In this document: piece by piece, positions 12,085 to 22,578 of the stretch
How positions within the stretch are numbered: the first letter of the stretch is position 1
Layout of the letters: each line of letters begins with the position of its first letter
From: Phocaeicola sp.
Lineage (GTDB): Bacteria; Bacteroidota; Bacteroidia; Bacteroidales; Bacteroidaceae
Direction of reading: 5' to 3'
Assembly: GCA_022764505.1 (NCBI GenBank)
Contig: JALEQJ010000004.1
Location: forward strand, 62,001-126,000
DNA length: 64,000 bases
Position numbers and translations under genes: made by a program
The notes under the pieces: generated by a model
The model's database searches: none
The model's input: the letters and a program-made list of their open reading frames with translations, nothing else
Told to the model about the DNA's origin: nothing

Positions 12085-15000
12085 ATGAGGAAAATTATAC
12101 ACATTGCATATTGGGGTTTGGTCATCTGCTTATCCTGTTTGTCTATAGAAATTCAAGCACAACAAGCAGTAAATATAGCCTATATAGATTCTCTGAACAA
12201 CAAATCTTATGAAAGCAGATACAAGGATTTAACAGAGAGTGCAAACTATGCCGGCGAAGCATATTCCTTATCCGAAGAATATCCTGTAGGACGAGCACAA
12301 GCACTCAATAATTTAGGCTTTATCTCTTTCATGCGTATGGATTTTGAGCAAGCCTCCCGCTTATTTCAGAAAGTATATACCTGTACTGAAAATCAGTTGG
12401 AGTGCCTTATAGCAGATATTGGGCTGATGAAAATCACTCAGCGTACCTCTCAAAACAAGATGTATTACGACTCTTCCAATAGAGCACGTCTACGCATAGC
12501 CAATATCCAAGAAGTACTTCCCACCATACAAGATGAACTACTCCGCAAAAGATTTTATTATGCACTTTCCGAATATTACATCGTAAATAGTATTTATTAT
12601 TTTTATTTAGAGCAAATATCTCAATCCATAGATGCCTTAAAACAAATCAAAGAAGAATCCTTGGAAAATATCCCGGCACAACGCCTATACTATCTGTATG
12701 TAAAAGGTTCCGGCGGCTTGTCCGAAGGAGACGATATGGAAAAAATAGTGGTTCAAGAGTTTGAGATGCTCATAGAATGCCTCCTCCTTGCAAAAAAAGG
12801 AGATTATGCTTACTTTGAAGCCAATGCCTTACAAGGATTGGCAGAATTACTCATTCCTTTTGCTCATAGAGAAATCCTCCAAAAAAACACTCCTACGCTC
12901 CTTCGGTTACTGAATGATGGAAAAACTCCTTTGGAGGAACAGCCTTTACAATTTGCAGAAAAAGCACTGCAACTTTTCACAGAATACGGAGACTGGTATC
13001 AAAGTTCCGGTTGCTATCGTACTATGGCTACCTACTATAACTATCACCAAAATCCGGAAATGGCACTTTCCTGCTTGGCAAAATCTCTTAGTTTCGTAAA
13101 CAAGCACTACCAGAAGTATTACCAACCTATAGATAGCTTAGACTACCTGCAAACCTACTCCCCCTATGGACACAATGTTTCTACAGAATTGGAGTGGATA
13201 AAAAGAGAAGTAAAAACGATTCCGGAGTGGATAGCTCGTATAAGAGAACAACTGAGTCTTACTTATTCCGCATTGGGAAGAAAAACAGAGTCGGACTACA
13301 ATAGGAACATTTATCTGGATCTTTTGGACTACATCAGACAGGATAAAGAACTGGAAAGTAGAAAAGAAAATTTAGAACAGAAGGAAGCCCTCATCAGTAA
13401 AGTCTTAACCGGAGGTATCGTCGGTTTCTTGAGTTTTGTGTCATTACTTGTTTTACTCAATTACTACCAAAAAAAGCGAAACCAGCGGTATTCCTATAGG
13501 CTACATCAAGTCTTGAAACTGGGGCAACAGCTCATAGAGGCACTTCCTACTTCCATAGATGAATACAGTGCTATTCTCACCTCTATAGAACAAGTGCTAC
13601 AAAAAGAACTGCCACGTATTTTTGAAACGAAAGACATCTGCTTATCCCAAGAAGAAAAAAACAGCCTACAAGCCCAAGAACTTGTCTTTCCGCTTCAGCC
13701 ACAAGACCAACCTGTCCCTATAGGCTTCTTATACATTACCACTATTAAAACATGGAAAAAAGAAGATCAGGCTTTGGTTCAATTATTCCTCCCCTACCTC
13801 ATTTGGACATTAGAAAATGGGTTGAGATGGGCATACTTAGAAACAGAGAAACAACGATTGGAAACAGAAGAATATATCAATACACAGCATCTCATAGAAA
13901 ACAAATATCAGAATGCCACAAAGAAAGCATGTATCTTCATAGCTTCCGGTATTCAGCCTTATATAGACCGTATCATTCACCAAATAGATAAACTGCGCAC
14001 TGCCAGCTATGCACAGAACGAAGAGGTGAAACAAGGGAAACTCTCTTATATTCAAGAACTCATAGACAAGATAAACGAATACAATGAAATCCTTGCCACA
14101 TGGATCAAAATAAAAAAAGGAGATCTTAGTCTACACATAGAAACCTTCAATCTGAAAGATGTATTTGAAATTGTAGCTAAAGGGAAACGCACGTTTGAAA
14201 ATAAACAGCAGACCTTGGAAGTTACACCTACAGACTTTATGGTCAAGGCAGATAGGGCTCTCACTTTCTTTATGATTAACACCCTGCTGGAGAATGCACA
14301 TAAGTACACACCGGAAGGTGGAAGAATAAGACTCTATACAGAAGAATTTGACCAATACATAGAAATCTCTATCACAGATACGGGTATCGGACTAAGCTCG
14401 GAAGATATTCAAACCATATTGGGAGAAAAAGTTTATGAATCTCAACTCATAGGTATCAATCAAAGTACAGATACCCAAGCCCTCAAAGCACAGAAAGGAC
14501 ATGGTTTCGGTCTGATCAACTGTAAGGGTATCATTGAGAAATATAAAAAAACAAATCCACTATTCTCTATCTGCCACTTCGGGATAGAAAGTACGCTCAA
14601 GCAAGGTAGCCGTTTCTTCTTCCGTTTACCCAAAGGCATAAAAAGAACATTATTAGGAGGTCTTATCGCCTGCATTACATTGGGAGGAAGCAGTTGTTCT
14701 ACAGAGCCAAGAAATGCACATACCCAAAGAAACCCTTTCTTGTACGACAGCCTGTTTTCTATTGCCAACGTGTATGCCAACAAGATGTACAATGAGAATA
14801 TGAAAGGAGAGTACGAACAGGCACTTATCTATGCAGATTCCGTGATCCTTTTTATGAATGAGCATCACCTTTTGTACAATCAAGGCACAGCTCCTTTGCT
14901 TGAATTGGAGGGAAACCCCAATCAGCCCATCACAGAAATAGAATGGTTCAAGAGAGGTTATGATACAGACTACCATATATTATTGGATCTGAGAAATGAG

Positions 15001-16452
15001 GCAGCAGTAGCAGCATTGGCACTCAAAGATTTTTCTCTCTATAGATATAACAATAAAGCCTACACGATGCTCTATAAGCAAATCAGTCAAGATACCACAT
15101 TGGAAGACTATTGTTTACAAATGGAGCAAACCTCCAAAAATAAAAGTATAGCCATCTTTTTCTGCGTAGCTTTCAGTCTTTGTGCAGGGCTCATTTTTTA
15201 TTTATTGTATATCCGTAGGAACCTTAGAATGCGATATAACTTGGAGCAAGTGTTGCAGGTCAATAAAAAGATATTTTCCACCTCTCCTGTTGATGCACAG
15301 GAAGAAGAAGAGAAAGTACAATTGGAAAATATTTTAGCTACAGCTTACAATGCTATCAACCAAGTAATCCCTATTGGTAATATGGCATTCTGTGTAAAAG
15401 ATGAAGAAACTACTCTACAGCTTGTTTCCCAAACTGAGATTACGGAAGAAGAAAAGGAACAAATCTGCAAACACGCACACATTAAAACAGCCTTCGTGGA
15501 TAAAAACACTCATTGGGCATACTTCCCTCTCAATATCGCTTTCGGGAAAGAGAGTACCAATATAGGGACATTAGCCGTATATCTGCCTACAGAAAGCAAT
15601 ACAGGAGACTGTATTCTGTTTATCACGATGGTATCTCGCTATCTGGCATTGTACATTTATCATACTGTTATCAAGATCTCTTATAAATCTTCTATCGTAG
15701 AAATAGCACAAGACGATGTTTCAAGAATTCATTTTGAACAAGGGCTTATACACGTACAAAATATGGTGTTGGACAACTGTCTGTCTACCCTAAAGCATGA
15801 AACACTTTATTATCCACACCGTATCAAGCAAATTATAGCCAAATCCGAGCTACAAGATGATACTTCCACCTACCAAGAAGCCTTGATGAACATCTCAGAA
15901 GTAGTTACCCACTATAAAGAAGTATTCGGTTTACTCTTGTCTTGCGCAGAAAGACAATTGGAGAATGTAACCTTCAGAAGAGGAGATGTTTCCACCTATA
16001 AACTTATTCAGTATGCGGAAAAGTATAGCCAAAAACTATTGAAGAAAGCCGATTTTAATGTATACTTGCATACAGAAATAGAAGAAGATATGACAGCTAT
16101 AGGAGATGAAGTCCTCTTAAACCTACTGATAGAGTGCTTACTACACGAAGCTATAGCTTATCCCAAAGAGGGAAATCTTTCCTTACACATCTACCGAGAA
16201 GACAAATTTATCCGTTTTGACTTCACAGATGAGCGTAGAGAAATGACCCAAGAAGAAGCCAATCAACTCTTCTACCCTCAACAGCGGGAAGAATATCACA
16301 ATGGCAGCATTCTGTCTCAAGGATTTGAATGGCTCATTTGCAAACAAGTCATCAGAGAACACGATGAATATGCCAGTAGAAGAGGGTGCAGAATCAATGC
16401 TTGCCCTGCCGAAAAAGGTTTTAAGATATGGTTTACAATACCTATAAAATAA
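12085..16452 (+). CDS. Tandem sensor-kinase-like protein (resembles DUF5112/DUF5113 proteins)
   Basis: Signal peptide, TPR-like sensor, TM, HATPase (NTLLENAHKYTPEGG, DTGIGLS, GHGFGLINCKGII), second TM (LLGGLIACITLGGSSC), second sensor, TM (SIAIFFCVAFSLCAGLIFYLLY), H-box-like KHETLYYP, degenerate HATPase. Confidence 0.8.
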   Translation: MRKIIHIAYWGLVICLSCLSIEIQAQQAVNIAYIDSLNNKSYESRYKDLTESANYAGEAYSLSEEYPVGRAQALNNLGFISFMRMDFEQASRLFQKVYTCTENQLECLIADIGLMKITQRTSQNKMYYDSSNRARLRIANIQEVLPTIQDELLRKRFYYALSEYYIVNSIYYFYLEQISQSIDALKQIKEESLENIPAQRLYYLYVKGSGGLSEGDDMEKIVVQEFEMLIECLLLAKKGDYAYFEANALQGLAELLIPFAHREILQKNTPTLLRLLNDGKTPLEEQPLQFAEKALQLFTEYGDWYQSSGCYRTMATYYNYHQNPEMALSCLAKSLSFVNKHYQKYYQPIDSLDYLQTYSPYGHNVSTELEWIKREVKTIPEWIARIREQLSLTYSALGRKTESDYNRNIYLDLLDYIRQDKELESRKENLEQKEALISKVLTGGIVGFLSFVSLLVLLNYYQKKRNQRYSYRLHQVLKLGQQLIEALPTSIDEYSAILTSIEQVLQKELPRIFETKDICLSQEEKNSLQAQELVFPLQPQDQPVPIGFLYITTIKTWKKEDQALVQLFLPYLIWTLENGLRWAYLETEKQRLETEEYINTQHLIENKYQNATKKACIFIASGIQPYIDRIIHQIDKLRTASYAQNEEVKQGKLSYIQELIDKINEYNEILATWIKIKKGDLSLHIETFNLKDVFEIVAKGKRTFENKQQTLEVTPTDFMVKADRALTFFMINTLLENAHKYTPEGGRIRLYTEEFDQYIEISITDTGIGLSSEDIQTILGEKVYESQLIGINQSTDTQALKAQKGHGFGLINCKGIIEKYKKTNPLFSICHFGIESTLKQGSRFFFRLPKGIKRTLLGGLIACITLGGSSCSTEPRNAHTQRNPFLYDSLFSIANVYANKMYNENMKGEYEQALIYADSVILFMNEHHLLYNQGTAPLLELEGNPNQPITEIEWFKRGYDTDYHILLDLRNEAAVAALALKDFSLYRYNNKAYTMLYKQISQDTTLEDYCLQMEQTSKNKSIAIFFCVAFSLCAGLIFYLLYIRRNLRMRYNLEQVLQVNKKIFSTSPVDAQEEEEKVQLENILATAYNAINQVIPIGNMAFCVKDEETTLQLVSQTEITEEEKEQICKHAHIKTAFVDKNTHWAYFPLNIAFGKESTNIGTLAVYLPTESNTGDCILFITMVSRYLALYIYHTVIKISYKSSIVEIAQDDVSRIHFEQGLIHVQNMVLDNCLSTLKHETLYYPHRIKQIIAKSELQDDTSTYQEALMNISEVVTHYKEVFGLLLSCAERQLENVTFRRGDVSTYKLIQYAEKYSQKLLKKADFNVYLHTEIEEDMTAIGDEVLLNLLIECLLHEAIAYPKEGNLSLHIYREDKFIRFDFTDERREMTQEEANQLFYPQQREEYHNGSILSQGFEWLICKQVIREHDEYASRRGCRINACPAEKGFKIWFTIPIK

Positions 16453-16463
16453 AGAATTAGCAC

Positions 16464-17186
16464 ATGAAGAAATTCAAGGTTGTCATAGTAGAAGATGTAA
16501 AATTAGAACTCAAAGGAACAGAAGAAATTTTCCGCCATGAAATACCCAATGCCGAAATCATAGGAACAGCTATGACAGAAGCAGAACTCTGGGAAATAAT
16601 GAAACAAGAAGTTCCGGATCTTGTACTTTTGGATTTGGGTTTAGGAGGCTCTACCACCATAGGAGTAGACATCTGTGCAAAGTTAAGAACAGATTACCCG
16701 GCTCTGAAAATTCTCATATTCACAGGAGAAATTGTCAATGAAAAGCTGTGGGTAGATGCACTACAAGCCGGAGCCAATGGTATTATACTGAAAACAGGAG
16801 AATTACTCACTGCCACAGATGTACAAGCAGTAATGGACGGAAAAGAATACGTCTTCAATTATCCTATTTTGGAACGTATGGTAGAACGCTTCAAAGAAAC
16901 CATACAAACAGAACAACGCCGTACAGAAGCCATTATCAGTTATGATATAGATGAATACGATGAACGTTTACTGCGCCACCTTGCATTGGGGTATACCAAA
17001 GAAATGATAGCCAGCTTACGCAGTATGCCTTTCGGTGTGAAATCCTTAGAAAAAAGACAAAACGACCTCGTAAACCGTCTGTTCAAGGCTACCGAACGAA
17101 CCGGGATTAACGCTTGCAGACTTGTAACAAGAGCTTTTGAACTACGTATATTGGATATTGACCATTTAGAAGCAGATGAAGAGTAA
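16464..17186 (+). CDS. Response regulator (REC plus LuxR-like HTH; DUF5932-like)
   Basis: IVEDVK acidic pocket, DLVLLDLGLGG with Asp57, ILKTGE lysine; C-terminal LLRHLALGYTKEMIA...LEKRQNDLVNRLF resembles a GerE HTH. Confidence 0.85.
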   Translation: MKKFKVVIVEDVKLELKGTEEIFRHEIPNAEIIGTAMTEAELWEIMKQEVPDLVLLDLGLGGSTTIGVDICAKLRTDYPALKILIFTGEIVNEKLWVDALQAGANGIILKTGELLTATDVQAVMDGKEYVFNYPILERMVERFKETIQTEQRRTEAIISYDIDEYDERLLRHLALGYTKEMIASLRSMPFGVKSLEKRQNDLVNRLFKATERTGINACRLVTRAFELRILDIDHLEADEE

Positions 17187-17874
17187 ATACTTGCCACACC
17201 CCATTACGCTTTTTATCAGTCTTTCTATCTTCACCATCATGCTCTCATGGATAGGAAGCATATACAAATGGCAAGGAGTTCAAAATTTACTCAGTTCCGA
17301 AAATCTACGTTGGATTTTAACCCATGCCAGCACAGATTTCTTCGGACAAAAATTTGTAACACACAGCTTTTTCTTAGCTATGGGAATAGGCACAGTCCTA
17401 CATTCCGGATTGTATGCCACCATTGTTCGCCAATGGACAGGGAAAGCTCGCCTCACACACAAAGAACGCCGAGCACTTTGGACTATGCTCATCGGCTGTA
17501 TTTTCTATTTCGGAATATTGAGTGCCTTATTGCTCCTATCCAAAGACCTATTTTACAATATCTGGGGAGGCTGGGAGAACTCACCCTTTTCCTATAGTGC
17601 TGTATTTCTATTGGCACAGGGTATCTCACTATCCAGTATTCTATTTGGTTTTACTATGGATAGATACAGATCCGGGAAAGATGTATTTGCAGGCATAAGT
17701 TTTGGTCTTCAGCAAACCTCTCCTTTCTTTACGATCTATTTCTTTATATCATTTTTCTTCCTATTAGAAGACAGAGCCGGAATTTTTCTTTTTTTCTCCC
17801 TCACAGAAACCATTGTATTTGTTTTGAAGGTTGTTTGTATCATCGCTTCTACCTATCTTATTTATAAGAAGTAA
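17176..17874 (+). CDS. AbgT-like truncated/divergent membrane protein
   Basis: KYLPHPITLFISLSIFTIMLSWIGSIY...GIGTVLHSGL resembles the N-terminus of AbgT transporters but is only 232 aa; overlaps the upstream gene by 11 nt. Confidence 0.55.
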   Translation: MKSKYLPHPITLFISLSIFTIMLSWIGSIYKWQGVQNLLSSENLRWILTHASTDFFGQKFVTHSFFLAMGIGTVLHSGLYATIVRQWTGKARLTHKERRALWTMLIGCIFYFGILSALLLLSKDLFYNIWGGWENSPFSYSAVFLLAQGISLSSILFGFTMDRYRSGKDVFAGISFGLQQTSPFFTIYFFISFFFLLEDRAGIFLFFSLTETIVFVLKVVCIIASTYLIYKK

Positions 17875-18076: not shown

Positions 18077-20275
18077 ATGATGATATCCTATAAAAACATT
18101 CTTACTGTGTTATTTCTTATAGCTACTTCATGCACTGCTATAGGAAAGAACTTGGTTTACTATGTCAATCCATTCATAGGAACAGACTATACAGGAAATA
18201 CTTACCCTGGAGCGCAAGTGCCGTTTGGTATGGTGCAATTAAGTCCGGACAACGGGCTACCCGGCTGGGACAGAATTGCAGGCTACTTTTATCCGGACAG
18301 TACCATAGCAGGTTTCAGCCATACACACCTCTCTGGAACCGGAGCAGGAGACCTATATGACATTTCTTTTATGCCGGTAACTCTTCCTTACAAAGAAGCA
18401 GAAGGGGACTTAGGTATCTACTCACGTTTCTCACACCAAGACGAAAGTGCCTATGCAGGTTATTATCAAGTCAGGCTCACAGATTATAATATCAATGTAG
18501 AACTCACTGCCACTCCAAGATGTGGTATTCAGCGATACACCTTCCCAAAAGCAAAAAGTGGCATTTACCTCAATTTGAAAAAAGCGATGAATTGGGATAA
18601 AACAGTGGATACCTATATAGAATTGGTAGATGCTTATACCATTCGTGGCTATCGCTTTTCCGATGGTTGGGCACGTAATCAAAAAGTCTATTTCGTAACT
18701 CGTTTTTCCAAACCTTTCAAGGAAGCTACTACCTTCAAAGAACCTCTACAAGGGGAACAAGGAACAGGATACATTGCTCGCTTTGATTTTGATACAGAAG
18801 AAGGAGAACAGATTGTAGTATCCACAGCTATTTCTGCGGTAAGTATGGAAGGAGCTATGAAAAACCTGCTCTACGAAGCTCCGCATAATAATTTTGATAA
18901 ATACCTTTCTTTGGCTACCAAAGCATGGGAAAAAGAATTGAGCAAAATCCAAATAAAAAGTAAGGATTTTGATAAACTCACTGTTTTTTATACTTCTTTC
19001 TATCGGAGTATGCTGGCTCCTACCCTCTTCAAAGATGTAGATGGACAGTATTATGGAGCAGACTTTAATGTTTATCATGCATTAGGTTGGAATAATTACA
19101 CCACGTTTTCTTTGTGGGATACCTATAGAGTAGCACACCCGCTCTTATTTTTGACACACCCCAAAGAAAGCAGAGATATGGTACTTTCCCTCATAGAGTT
19201 CGGGAAACAAAAAGGACGCTTGCCCGTGTGGAGCTTACACGGCTCGGAAACAGATATGATGCTGGGCTATCATTCTGTGCCTGTTATTGTGAGCCTGCTA
19301 CTAAAAGAAAAAGGAGGATATTCTACAAGAGAAATCTTGAATCTCTGCTTAAAAACCGCCAATTATGACACTTATAGAAACATTGGCGATTATAAAAAAT
19401 TCGGCTATGTTCCCTATGATATAACAGACCCTTACAATTCTGATAACTGGGCACTCTCTAAAACTTTAGAATACGCATACGATGATTATTGCATTGCACG
19501 TTTGGCTGAAAAATTGGGAGAAAAGGAAGTAGCTGAGACTTTCTACAAACGTGCCCAAAACTATCAGAACCTATTCAATAAAAACACCGGTTTCTTCCAA
19601 CCCAAAGACAGTAACGGAGAGTTCATTGAACCTTTTGACCCAGAAGATTACACTCCTTATATTGCGGAAAGCAATGCTTGGCAATACTTATGGTCTGTAC
19701 AGCATGACATAGATGGACTGATGAAACTATTAGGAGGTAAAGAACAGATGGCTAAGCGATTGGATCAAATGTTTACCACAGCTCCTACAGATTCTACTAA
19801 ATTACCTATCTTCAGTACGGGTATGATAGGACAATACGCTCACGGAAATGAGCCCAGTCATCATATACCCTATTTATACAATGCTGTAAGACAACCTTGG
19901 AAAACAGCAGAATACATCAATAAAATTTGTACGGAACTCTACAAAAATACGCCAAGTGGATTATGTGGCAACGAAGATTGTGGGCAAATGTCTGCTTGGT
20001 ATGTATTCAGCAGTATGGGTTTCTATCCCGTAAATCCCGTATCTAATGAGTACGAAATAGGAACTCCACAATTTGAGTCCATTACCCTCAACTTACCTAA
20101 CGGGAAAAAATTTACAGTCCTTGCACACGGACTTAGCAACAGTCATATTTTTATATCAAGAGCATTCTTCAATGGCAAGCGACATAGAAAAAGCACGCTC
20201 ACTTATGAAGAAATACAACAAGGAGGTACATTAGAACTCTTTATGACAGATCGTCCTGGAATTTGCTGGTATTAA
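18077..20275 (+). CDS. GH92 family glycosidase (alpha-mannosidase-like)
   Basis: VNPFIGTDYTGNTYPGAQVPFGMVQLSPD, GFSHTHLSGTGAGDLYDI, NEPSHHIPYLY, GNEDCGQMSAWYVFSSMGFYPV. Confidence 0.93.
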   Translation: MMISYKNILTVLFLIATSCTAIGKNLVYYVNPFIGTDYTGNTYPGAQVPFGMVQLSPDNGLPGWDRIAGYFYPDSTIAGFSHTHLSGTGAGDLYDISFMPVTLPYKEAEGDLGIYSRFSHQDESAYAGYYQVRLTDYNINVELTATPRCGIQRYTFPKAKSGIYLNLKKAMNWDKTVDTYIELVDAYTIRGYRFSDGWARNQKVYFVTRFSKPFKEATTFKEPLQGEQGTGYIARFDFDTEEGEQIVVSTAISAVSMEGAMKNLLYEAPHNNFDKYLSLATKAWEKELSKIQIKSKDFDKLTVFYTSFYRSMLAPTLFKDVDGQYYGADFNVYHALGWNNYTTFSLWDTYRVAHPLLFLTHPKESRDMVLSLIEFGKQKGRLPVWSLHGSETDMMLGYHSVPVIVSLLLKEKGGYSTREILNLCLKTANYDTYRNIGDYKKFGYVPYDITDPYNSDNWALSKTLEYAYDDYCIARLAEKLGEKEVAETFYKRAQNYQNLFNKNTGFFQPKDSNGEFIEPFDPEDYTPYIAESNAWQYLWSVQHDIDGLMKLLGGKEQMAKRLDQMFTTAPTDSTKLPIFSTGMIGQYAHGNEPSHHIPYLYNAVRQPWKTAEYINKICTELYKNTPSGLCGNEDCGQMSAWYVFSSMGFYPVNPVSNEYEIGTPQFESITLNLPNGKKFTVLAHGLSNSHIFISRAFFNGKRHRKSTLTYEEIQQGGTLELFMTDRPGICWY

Positions 20276-20310: not shown

Positions 20311-22578
20311 ATGAAAAGAATTACTTATACACTCTTCATAGCATTCATTGCTATATTCAGTGCCTGTTCCACAAAGACAGAACAAGCAGAAACTGATTAC
20401 ACAGCATTCGTAGATCCATTCATAGGAACAGATGGACATGGGCATACTTTCCCCGGTGCAGTAGTTCCGCACGGTATGATTCAACCCAGCCCGGACACAC
20501 GCATAGATGGCTGGGACGCTTGCTCCGGTTATCATTACTCGGACAGCACTATCAATGGTTTCTCACAAACCCATGTGAGTGGTACGGGTTGTGCTGATTA
20601 CGGAGATATACTTCTTATGCCAACAGTAGGAGATCAGATCATAAATCCACAAGACCTCACCTCTCAAACGCTGCCCTATGCTTCTACATTCTCTCATAAC
20701 AAAGAAACTGCAGAACCCGGATATTATAATGTATGGTTGGACCGTTACAATGTACTGGCAGAAGTTACAGCTACCAAACGTGCAGCACTCTACAAATTCA
20801 CCTACCCCAAAGATGGTGAAGCAGGTCTAATTTTGGATTTAGACTACTCTATACAACGCCAGAACAATAGAGATATGATCCTTGAAGTGGTAAACGACAC
20901 AGAAATTCGTGGACACAAGGTTACCGGTTATTGGGCATTTGATCAAGTCATCAATTTTCACATTACCTTCTCAGAACCATTTACACACACAATCATAGAA
21001 GACAGCTTATTCACCGAGACCGGTAAACCTTATTTGCGCAAAAAGGCTTTGCTCAAATTCCAAAACCCTGAACCGGGGACTGTGTTTGCCAAAATAGCAG
21101 TATCTGCAGTAGACGTAGAAGGGGCTAAAAAGAACTTGTATGCAGAAATACCAGAATGGGATTTTGATGAGATACGCAAAAATGCCAAAGCAGAATGGAA
21201 TCAATATCTTTCTAAAATAGACATAGAAACAGAAAATAAAGACGAAAAAAAGATTTTCTACACAGCGATGTATCATACAGCTATAGCACCCAATCTCTTT
21301 ACAGACGTAGACGGACGCTACTTAGGTATGAACTTGCAAGCCCAACAAGGAGATGTAAAAAAGCCGATGTACACTATCTTCTCTCTGTGGGATACTTTCC
21401 GTGCTTTACACCCATTGCTCACCATCATTGACCCCGATTTGAATAATGAGCTTATACGCTCTCTCCTTATAAAGAAACAAGAAGGTGGCATCTTCCCTAT
21501 GTGGGAATTGGCAGGGAACTATACCGGTACAATGATAGGCTATCACGCCGTATCACTTGTAGCAGATGCCTACACCAAGGGTATATCTGACTTTGACTTA
21601 AAAGAGGCTTATGAAGCGTGCTTGCGTAGTGCCGAGTATGATACCACAGGTATCAGTTGTCCTCCTGCTGTACTCCCACATCTTATGCCTATGTCCAAAT
21701 ATTATAAGAATACTTTGGGGTACGTACCTTGCGATACAGAAAGCGAAGCTGTAGCGAAAGCCTTGGAATATGCATACGATGACTATTGCATTTCAATCTT
21801 AGCAGAAGCTGTAGGAGATAGTGCAAATGCAAAAAAATACAAAGAACTATCCAAAGCCTATACACACTACTTTGATCCTTCCGTACGATTTATGAGAGGA
21901 AAAAATCTGAAAGGTAAATGGCGCACTCCATTTGATCCACGCTCCTCCAATCACAGATCGGACGATTACTGCGAAGGAAATGCTTGGCAATGGACTTGGT
22001 TTGTACCACACGATGTAGAAGGTTTAGTCCAACTTATGGGAGGAGAAGAAGCCTTCATCAGCAAGCTGGATTCTCTCTTCAAAGCTCCGTCGGAACTCAC
22101 AGGAGAATTGGTTTCTGCCGATATTACAGGGCTGATAGGTCAATATGCGCATGGTAATGAACCCAGCCACCACGTAACTCACTTATACAATTATGTAGGT
22201 ATGCCGTGGGCAACACAAGCATTGGTAGACCAAATCCTACGTGAACAATATCGTGCAAATCCCGATGGTCTAACAGGCAACGAAGATTGCGGACAGATGT
22301 CCGCATGGTACATTATGAATGCTATGGGATTCTATCAGGTAGCACCGGGGAAACCGGTATATTCTATAGGTCGTCCGCTATTCCGGAAGTCCACAATCCA
22401 TCTGAAAGATGGCAAAACATTTACCATAGAGGCACTCAACAACAGCCCTGCCAATAAGTATATAGAAAAGATAGAACTCAATGGTAAAGTACTGAATACA
22501 CCTTTCTTTACACACCAAGATTTAGTAAACGGTGGCAAGTTAGTGCTTACTATGTCTCCTACTCCTTGCAGCTTATAA
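20311..22578 (+). CDS. GH92 family glycosidase (alpha-mannosidase-like), lipoprotein
   Basis: Lipobox IFSACSTK; VDPFIGTDGHGHTFPGAVVPHGMIQPSPD; NEPSHHVTHLYNYVG; GNEDCGQMSAWYIMNAMGFY. Confidence 0.93.
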   Translation: MKRITYTLFIAFIAIFSACSTKTEQAETDYTAFVDPFIGTDGHGHTFPGAVVPHGMIQPSPDTRIDGWDACSGYHYSDSTINGFSQTHVSGTGCADYGDILLMPTVGDQIINPQDLTSQTLPYASTFSHNKETAEPGYYNVWLDRYNVLAEVTATKRAALYKFTYPKDGEAGLILDLDYSIQRQNNRDMILEVVNDTEIRGHKVTGYWAFDQVINFHITFSEPFTHTIIEDSLFTETGKPYLRKKALLKFQNPEPGTVFAKIAVSAVDVEGAKKNLYAEIPEWDFDEIRKNAKAEWNQYLSKIDIETENKDEKKIFYTAMYHTAIAPNLFTDVDGRYLGMNLQAQQGDVKKPMYTIFSLWDTFRALHPLLTIIDPDLNNELIRSLLIKKQEGGIFPMWELAGNYTGTMIGYHAVSLVADAYTKGISDFDLKEAYEACLRSAEYDTTGISCPPAVLPHLMPMSKYYKNTLGYVPCDTESEAVAKALEYAYDDYCISILAEAVGDSANAKKYKELSKAYTHYFDPSVRFMRGKNLKGKWRTPFDPRSSNHRSDDYCEGNAWQWTWFVPHDVEGLVQLMGGEEAFISKLDSLFKAPSELTGELVSADITGLIGQYAHGNEPSHHVTHLYNYVGMPWATQALVDQILREQYRANPDGLTGNEDCGQMSAWYIMNAMGFYQVAPGKPVYSIGRPLFRKSTIHLKDGKTFTIEALNNSPANKYIEKIELNGKVLNTPFFTHQDLVNGGKLVLTMSPTPCSL

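Follow-up and report, generated by a model that had tools for sequence, protein, structure and literature searches.

By its catalytic motifs, a single gene of Phocaeicola sp. encodes two histidine kinase modules in tandem, an ATPase half without a phosphate acceptor and an acceptor half without an ATPase. The best explanation of the whole, and one that we consider fairly probable, is a single-gene split histidine kinase: the ATP-binding domain of module 1 (CA1) would phosphorylate His1238 of module 2, His1238 would pass the phosphate to a neighboring response regulator, the DHp domains of the two modules would pair, and the joint between the halves would be cut. The gene lies in a 64,000-nt window (GCA_022764505.1, contig JALEQJ010000004.1, positions 62,001 to 126,000 of the forward strand), and all positions given here are those of the window (Table 1).

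Domain organization of the double sensor kinase

A Pfam scan of the open reading frame (ORF) identified DUF5112 at residues 34 to 299, two stretches of DUF5113, and one clear HATPase_c domain, which belongs to module 1. A preliminary description of this DNA had noted a resemblance to DUF5112/DUF5113 proteins; the protein is in fact a direct member of both families, with scores of 296.4 and 308.9 bits for PF17139 and PF17140, respectively, against curated cut-offs of 29.4 and 27.1. The motifs quoted in that description and the codon of His1238 were all found in place within one 1455-aa frame. We found no paper naming DUF5112 or DUF5113 (PF17139, PF17140) in the literature searched and, therefore, located no described mechanism.

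An AlphaFold2 model of residues 425 to 1455 had good domains (mean pLDDT of 87.6) but a pTM of only 0.62. In the model, each module has a helical hairpin followed by elements of a Bergerat-type CA fold, as in canonical HisKA kinases. By DSSP, CA2 is consistent with a retained fold of this type, and Foldseek returned histidine kinase DHp-CA structures, including HK853 and WalK, as well as the pseudokinase sensors RetS and DivL. No CheA family was matched in the Pfam scan of the ORF, and the architecture is DHp-CA rather than the P1, P3, P4, P5 order of CheA. The phospho-His and intact CA domain of a canonical HisKA kinase do not occur within the same module; both are present only when the two modules are taken together.

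Table 1. Features of the double sensor kinase gene and its partner in the window
Feature	Position	Strand	Basis or remark
Double sensor kinase (putative precursor), whole ORF	12085..16452	+	1455 aa, single uninterrupted frame; homologs in 312/399 Bacteroidaceae genomes
N-terminal signal peptide, lipoprotein-like, residues 1-26	12085..12162	+	Lipobox pattern in 101/114 homologs assessed
DUF5112, TPR-like, predicted periplasmic sensor 1, residues 34-299	12184..12981	+	Pfam PF17139, E 2.5e-88
DUF5113 copy 1, about residues 300-437	12982..13395	+	Two PF17140 stretches in protein; two places in genome search
TM1, residues 440-458	13402..13458	+	Hydropathy
DHp1, helical hairpin without phospho-acceptor His	13840..14124	+	Alignments, hhalign; AlphaFold2 helices 559-639, 646-678
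DHp1 residue equivalent to His, Ser621/Gly622	13945-13950	+	Alignments
CA1, intact ATP-binding domain (N-box Asn737, DTGIG 765-769, GHGFG 805-809)	14125..14640	+	PF02518; complete in 175/175
Internal signal-peptide-like segment KGIKRTLLGGLIACITLGGSSC; putative lipobox Cys871 at 14695-14697	14632..14697	+	Sequence rules, conservation
Predicted periplasmic sensor 2, DUF5113 copy 2	14698..15147	+	PF17140; Pfam match 887-1044 extends into TM3
TM3, residues 1022-1040	15148..15204	+	Hydropathy
DHp2, invariant KHET.YYP, His1238 at 15796-15798	15670..15978	+	Alignments; AlphaFold2 helices
CA2, degenerate ATPase without N-box Asn, DxGxG (DERREM 1382-1387) or glycine-rich G2	15979..16449	+	Alignments
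CA2 C-terminal conserved tail, CKQIIR.HDE...RRGCRI	within 15979..16449	+	Alignments
Partner response regulator, Response_reg + DUF5932, Asp57 at 16632-16634	16464..17186	+	Pfam

Complementary loss of catalytic motifs

We counted motif states over 175 nonredundant homologs. The CA1 catalytic residues Asn737, Asp765, Gly767, Gly769, Gly807, and Gly809 are all present in 175/175, and Lys1237-His1238-Glu1239 (KHE) of module 2 is likewise kept in every homolog. In CA2, DxGxG occurs in 0/175 homologs, the N-box Asn in 1 (lost in 174/175), and a glycine-rich G2 motif, looked for in the same 175, in none. Module 1 has no usable H-box in any of them, and its DHp1 carries a conserved VxGIxPYIDR motif instead. 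The preliminary description had proposed from one sequence that the ATPase resides in module 1 and the acceptor His in module 2, and the homologs bear this out throughout. Because these motif states are near-invariant across the 175 homologs, the complementary loss is ancient, fixed, and strongly constrained. As judged by motif complementarity in 175/175, the gene qualifies as a split kinase, i.e., one with the ATPase and the phospho-acceptor on separate modules predicted to be unable to work alone.

CA2 is best explained as a catalytically dead ATPase fold that would be kept for structure or regulation. In genus g30, CA2 is only about 106 to 129 aa long, and KHE is retained. In five homologs, mostly of this genus (L098, L099, L100, L110, and L119), CA2 measures about 106 to 126 aa, and the linkers upstream of both DHp domains have shrunk together.

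Gly622 had initially been assigned to the position of the phospho-accepting His. No homolog has a His there, and the lack of a usable H-box stands; the identity of the equivalent residue is less certain, as His1238 corresponds to Ser621 by profile alignment and to Gly622 if counted from a CLSI motif common to the cousin kinase described below. Because module 1 has a one-residue deletion at this place, the assignment to Gly622 is defensible but ambiguous. The adjacent column 621 holds a His in 8/175 homologs, with the acidic neighbor absent. We rejected His621 as a surviving phospho-acceptor, given the missing acidic +1 residue and the placement of its carriers on the tree, where they require at least four changes and are nested among His-less lineages.

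A comparable division of labor is known from CheA3/CheA4 of Rhodobacter sphaeroides, in which the ATPase is confined to one partner and the phospho-His to the other, and autophosphorylation requires both together (PMC3591291). The likeness lies in the ATPase and phospho-His being divided between partners. CheA3/CheA4, however, are of the CheA type, soluble, and encoded by two genes, and they have a separate P1 domain, whereas the kinase described here has HisKA-like DHp domains, membrane sensors, a full DHp-CA outline in each half, and one gene.

Pseudokinase sensors exist, and module 2 might instead serve as an HPt-like acceptor of a different kinase, with module 1 a regulatory ATPase as in RetS and DivL, both of which are among the Foldseek matches. 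Like the present halves, RetS and DivL have a histidine kinase fold missing a catalytic part and work through another kinase, but their partner is a complete kinase, whereas the present halves are each missing the part that the other retains. The joint retention of the CA1 residues and KHE in one gene, each in 175/175, and the dedicated regulator that adjoins this gene both argue against an HPt-like role, which we regard as very unlikely.

The partner response regulator

A regulator with a DUF5932 domain adjoins the kinase gene in 113/118 loci; Asp57 and much of the receiver are invariant. Among 38 genomes chosen for a targeted comparison, genus g54 included, this regulator was present in 19/19 kinase-positive and 0/19 kinase-negative genomes. 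In genus g54, it is sometimes unlinked: in L115, L151, and L152, it is not directly downstream of the kinase gene and was found on another contig of those genomes. Among the other Bacteroidales sampled, it was absent except in the genus of the cousin kinase. Adjacency, Asp57, and co-occurrence support that the kinase has a dedicated regulator with an acceptor Asp, as in a two-component system. In the reaction that we favor, DHp1-CA1 would bind ATP and catalyze the kinase reaction, His1238 of DHp2 would accept the phosphate, and the phosphate would then move from His1238 to Asp57. We consider this phosphotransfer very likely.

The end of the regulator gene overlaps a gene for a small predicted membrane protein (17176-17874) with no confident NCBIfam match. 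Farther downstream, two adjacent related ORFs (18077-20275 and 20311-22578) resemble GH92-type glycosidases by eye.

The seam between the two halves

Module 1 ends with LPKGIKR, and the short hydrophobic stretch that comes next terminates in GGSSC. Across homologs, the median hydrophobic core at this seam is 12 residues, which resembles the N-terminal signal of these proteins (14) rather than TM1 (20) or TM3 (22). A lipobox rule was satisfied in 69/119 cases at the seam versus 2/119 at TM1 and 13/119 at TM3. Cys871 is present in 52/59 Bacteroides/Phocaeicola homologs, mostly after Ser, Gly, or Ala, and its flanks vary freely; in this group, the entropy of column 871 is 0.79 bits versus 1.6 to 3.8 bits for nearby columns. 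In other lineages, the seam has type-I-like ends, e.g., AMSAQ, FAAQ, and LNAQ, although all signal peptide calls were made with simple rules, and the type-I rule is permissive and fires at TM1 and TM3 too. A Pfam lipoprotein model did not match the internal segment. Residues 820 to 880 contain no ATG or GTG codon in frame and, therefore, no separate module 2 start that keeps this signal.

The most economical reading of the seam is that a gene fusion kept the signal peptide of the second gene and that this peptide is still cut. We judge cleavage of the precursor at the seam to be somewhat more probable than its absence. The cut would probably be made by signal peptidase II here, with lipidation of Cys871; elsewhere in the family, signal peptidase I would probably take this role. 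If the joint is cut, the working form is probably a 1:1 heterodimer of two membrane-anchored chains. The full proposal of a sensor kinase polyprotein, in which signal peptidase II or I releases an ATPase chain and a phospho-acceptor chain that are both membrane anchored and form an obligate heterodimer, stands at about even chances. The preliminary description placed both halves on one polypeptide; this is correct for the uninterrupted ORF and may fail after maturation, given the signal-peptide-like joint. In Bradyrhizobium, a pair of membrane proteins is synthesized as a single precursor, the cytochrome b/c1 protein FbcH, which is cleaved at a signal sequence in its interior. FbcH resembles the present protein in this arrangement; its cleavage is demonstrated, whereas ours is predicted, and its products are respiratory cytochromes rather than a kinase. 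If the seam is cut, it would represent a new route to obligate heterodimeric receptors, and it would be wrong to annotate the product as a single protein.

Cleavage at an internal signal peptide is rare, and the same catalytic complementation could operate in a precursor that is never cut, with the segment remaining in place as a signal anchor (TM2) and the single multi-span chain forming an intramolecular pseudo-dimer. The ORF is continuous in nearly all full-length homologs sampled, and some polytopic TM helices encoded in the window likewise have short hydrophobic cores; both observations fit an uncut chain. The lone conserved lipobox Cys amid variable flanks and the type-I-like ends elsewhere speak against it, and we consider it possible but somewhat doubtful. 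Genomes in which the homolog aligned in two or three pieces still hold one ORF, with G020 as the sole exception. Separate genes for the halves would have argued naturally for a two-chain form; we rejected this line of support, as the split in G020 lies inside linker 1 and not at the seam.

Proposed pairing of the DHp domains

We propose that the two DHp hairpins form a pseudo-homodimeric bundle, and if DHp1 and DHp2 pair in this way, CA1 would phosphorylate His1238 across the pair. Using mean-field DCA, tested against full and within-clade permutation, we observed that the DHp1-DHp2 bands, which lie close to where a mixed four-helix bundle would place them, reached 0.26 versus 0.121 ± 0.019 under full permutation; the signal was lost against within-clade permutation (0.247 ± 0.022). 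CA1-CA2 coevolution gave a small, similar peak. Because the signal did not withstand the within-clade control and the CA1-CA2 peak was similar, we treat the DHp1-DHp2 coevolution as suggestive only. Overall, we consider the pairing likely. Canonical histidine kinases homodimerize via DHp, and separate DHp1-DHp1 and DHp2-DHp2 homodimers might thus form, with CA1 reaching His1238 of the neighboring bundle. That arrangement is improbable, since CA1 would have to act on a bundle to which it is not attached, and the weak coevolution pattern points to DHp1-DHp2 pairing.

With two sensor regions feeding two half-kinases obliged to cooperate, the protein could be a coincidence detector, as initially suggested, in which phosphorylation of His1238 requires both periplasmic sensors to be occupied. 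However, in genus g45 (L283 to L285 and L287 to L289), nearly all of the second periplasmic DUF5113 has been lost, and the seam, KHE, and an intact CA1 are retained. AND, OR, and antagonistic logic are moreover all compatible with the architecture, and we regard a strict requirement for both inputs as unlikely. In the split kinase that we favor, the placement of the catalytic parts in different modules would make the protein a naturally asymmetric pseudo-dimer, and simple point mutants could address two-input logic, half-of-sites behavior, and phosphorylation in cis versus in trans.

Distribution and origin

Homologs were found in 59/60 relatives, with full-length or near full-length matches solely within the genus; the matches in other families among these 60 were ordinary kinases. 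At the family level, the kinase was present in 192/251 genomes and then in 312/399 Bacteroidaceae genomes, so that the system with its dedicated regulator is held by about four fifths of the sampled genomes of the family. A search beyond Bacteroidaceae gave hardly any homologs. One DUF5113 match outside the order (L063) was rejected as an ordinary TPR protein.

By profile alignment, modules 1 and 2 are homologous end to end over about 520 columns (local E 5e-33). In a tree of the modules, module 1 and module 2 form two separate groups with the same sampled lineages in both. Because each group is sampled across the family, the duplication is older than the Bacteroidaceae radiation. One other Bacteroidales genus has a single-module cousin kinase of 718 aa with the H-box RHDMSPY, an intact CA domain, and a lipobox in a lipoprotein-like N terminus; a regulator with a DUF5932 match lies directly downstream. 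The cousin kinase likely represents the preduplication state, the line of descent itself being inferred. An ancestral lipoprotein-type TPR sensor kinase would have undergone tandem duplication and fusion before the Bacteroidaceae genera split.
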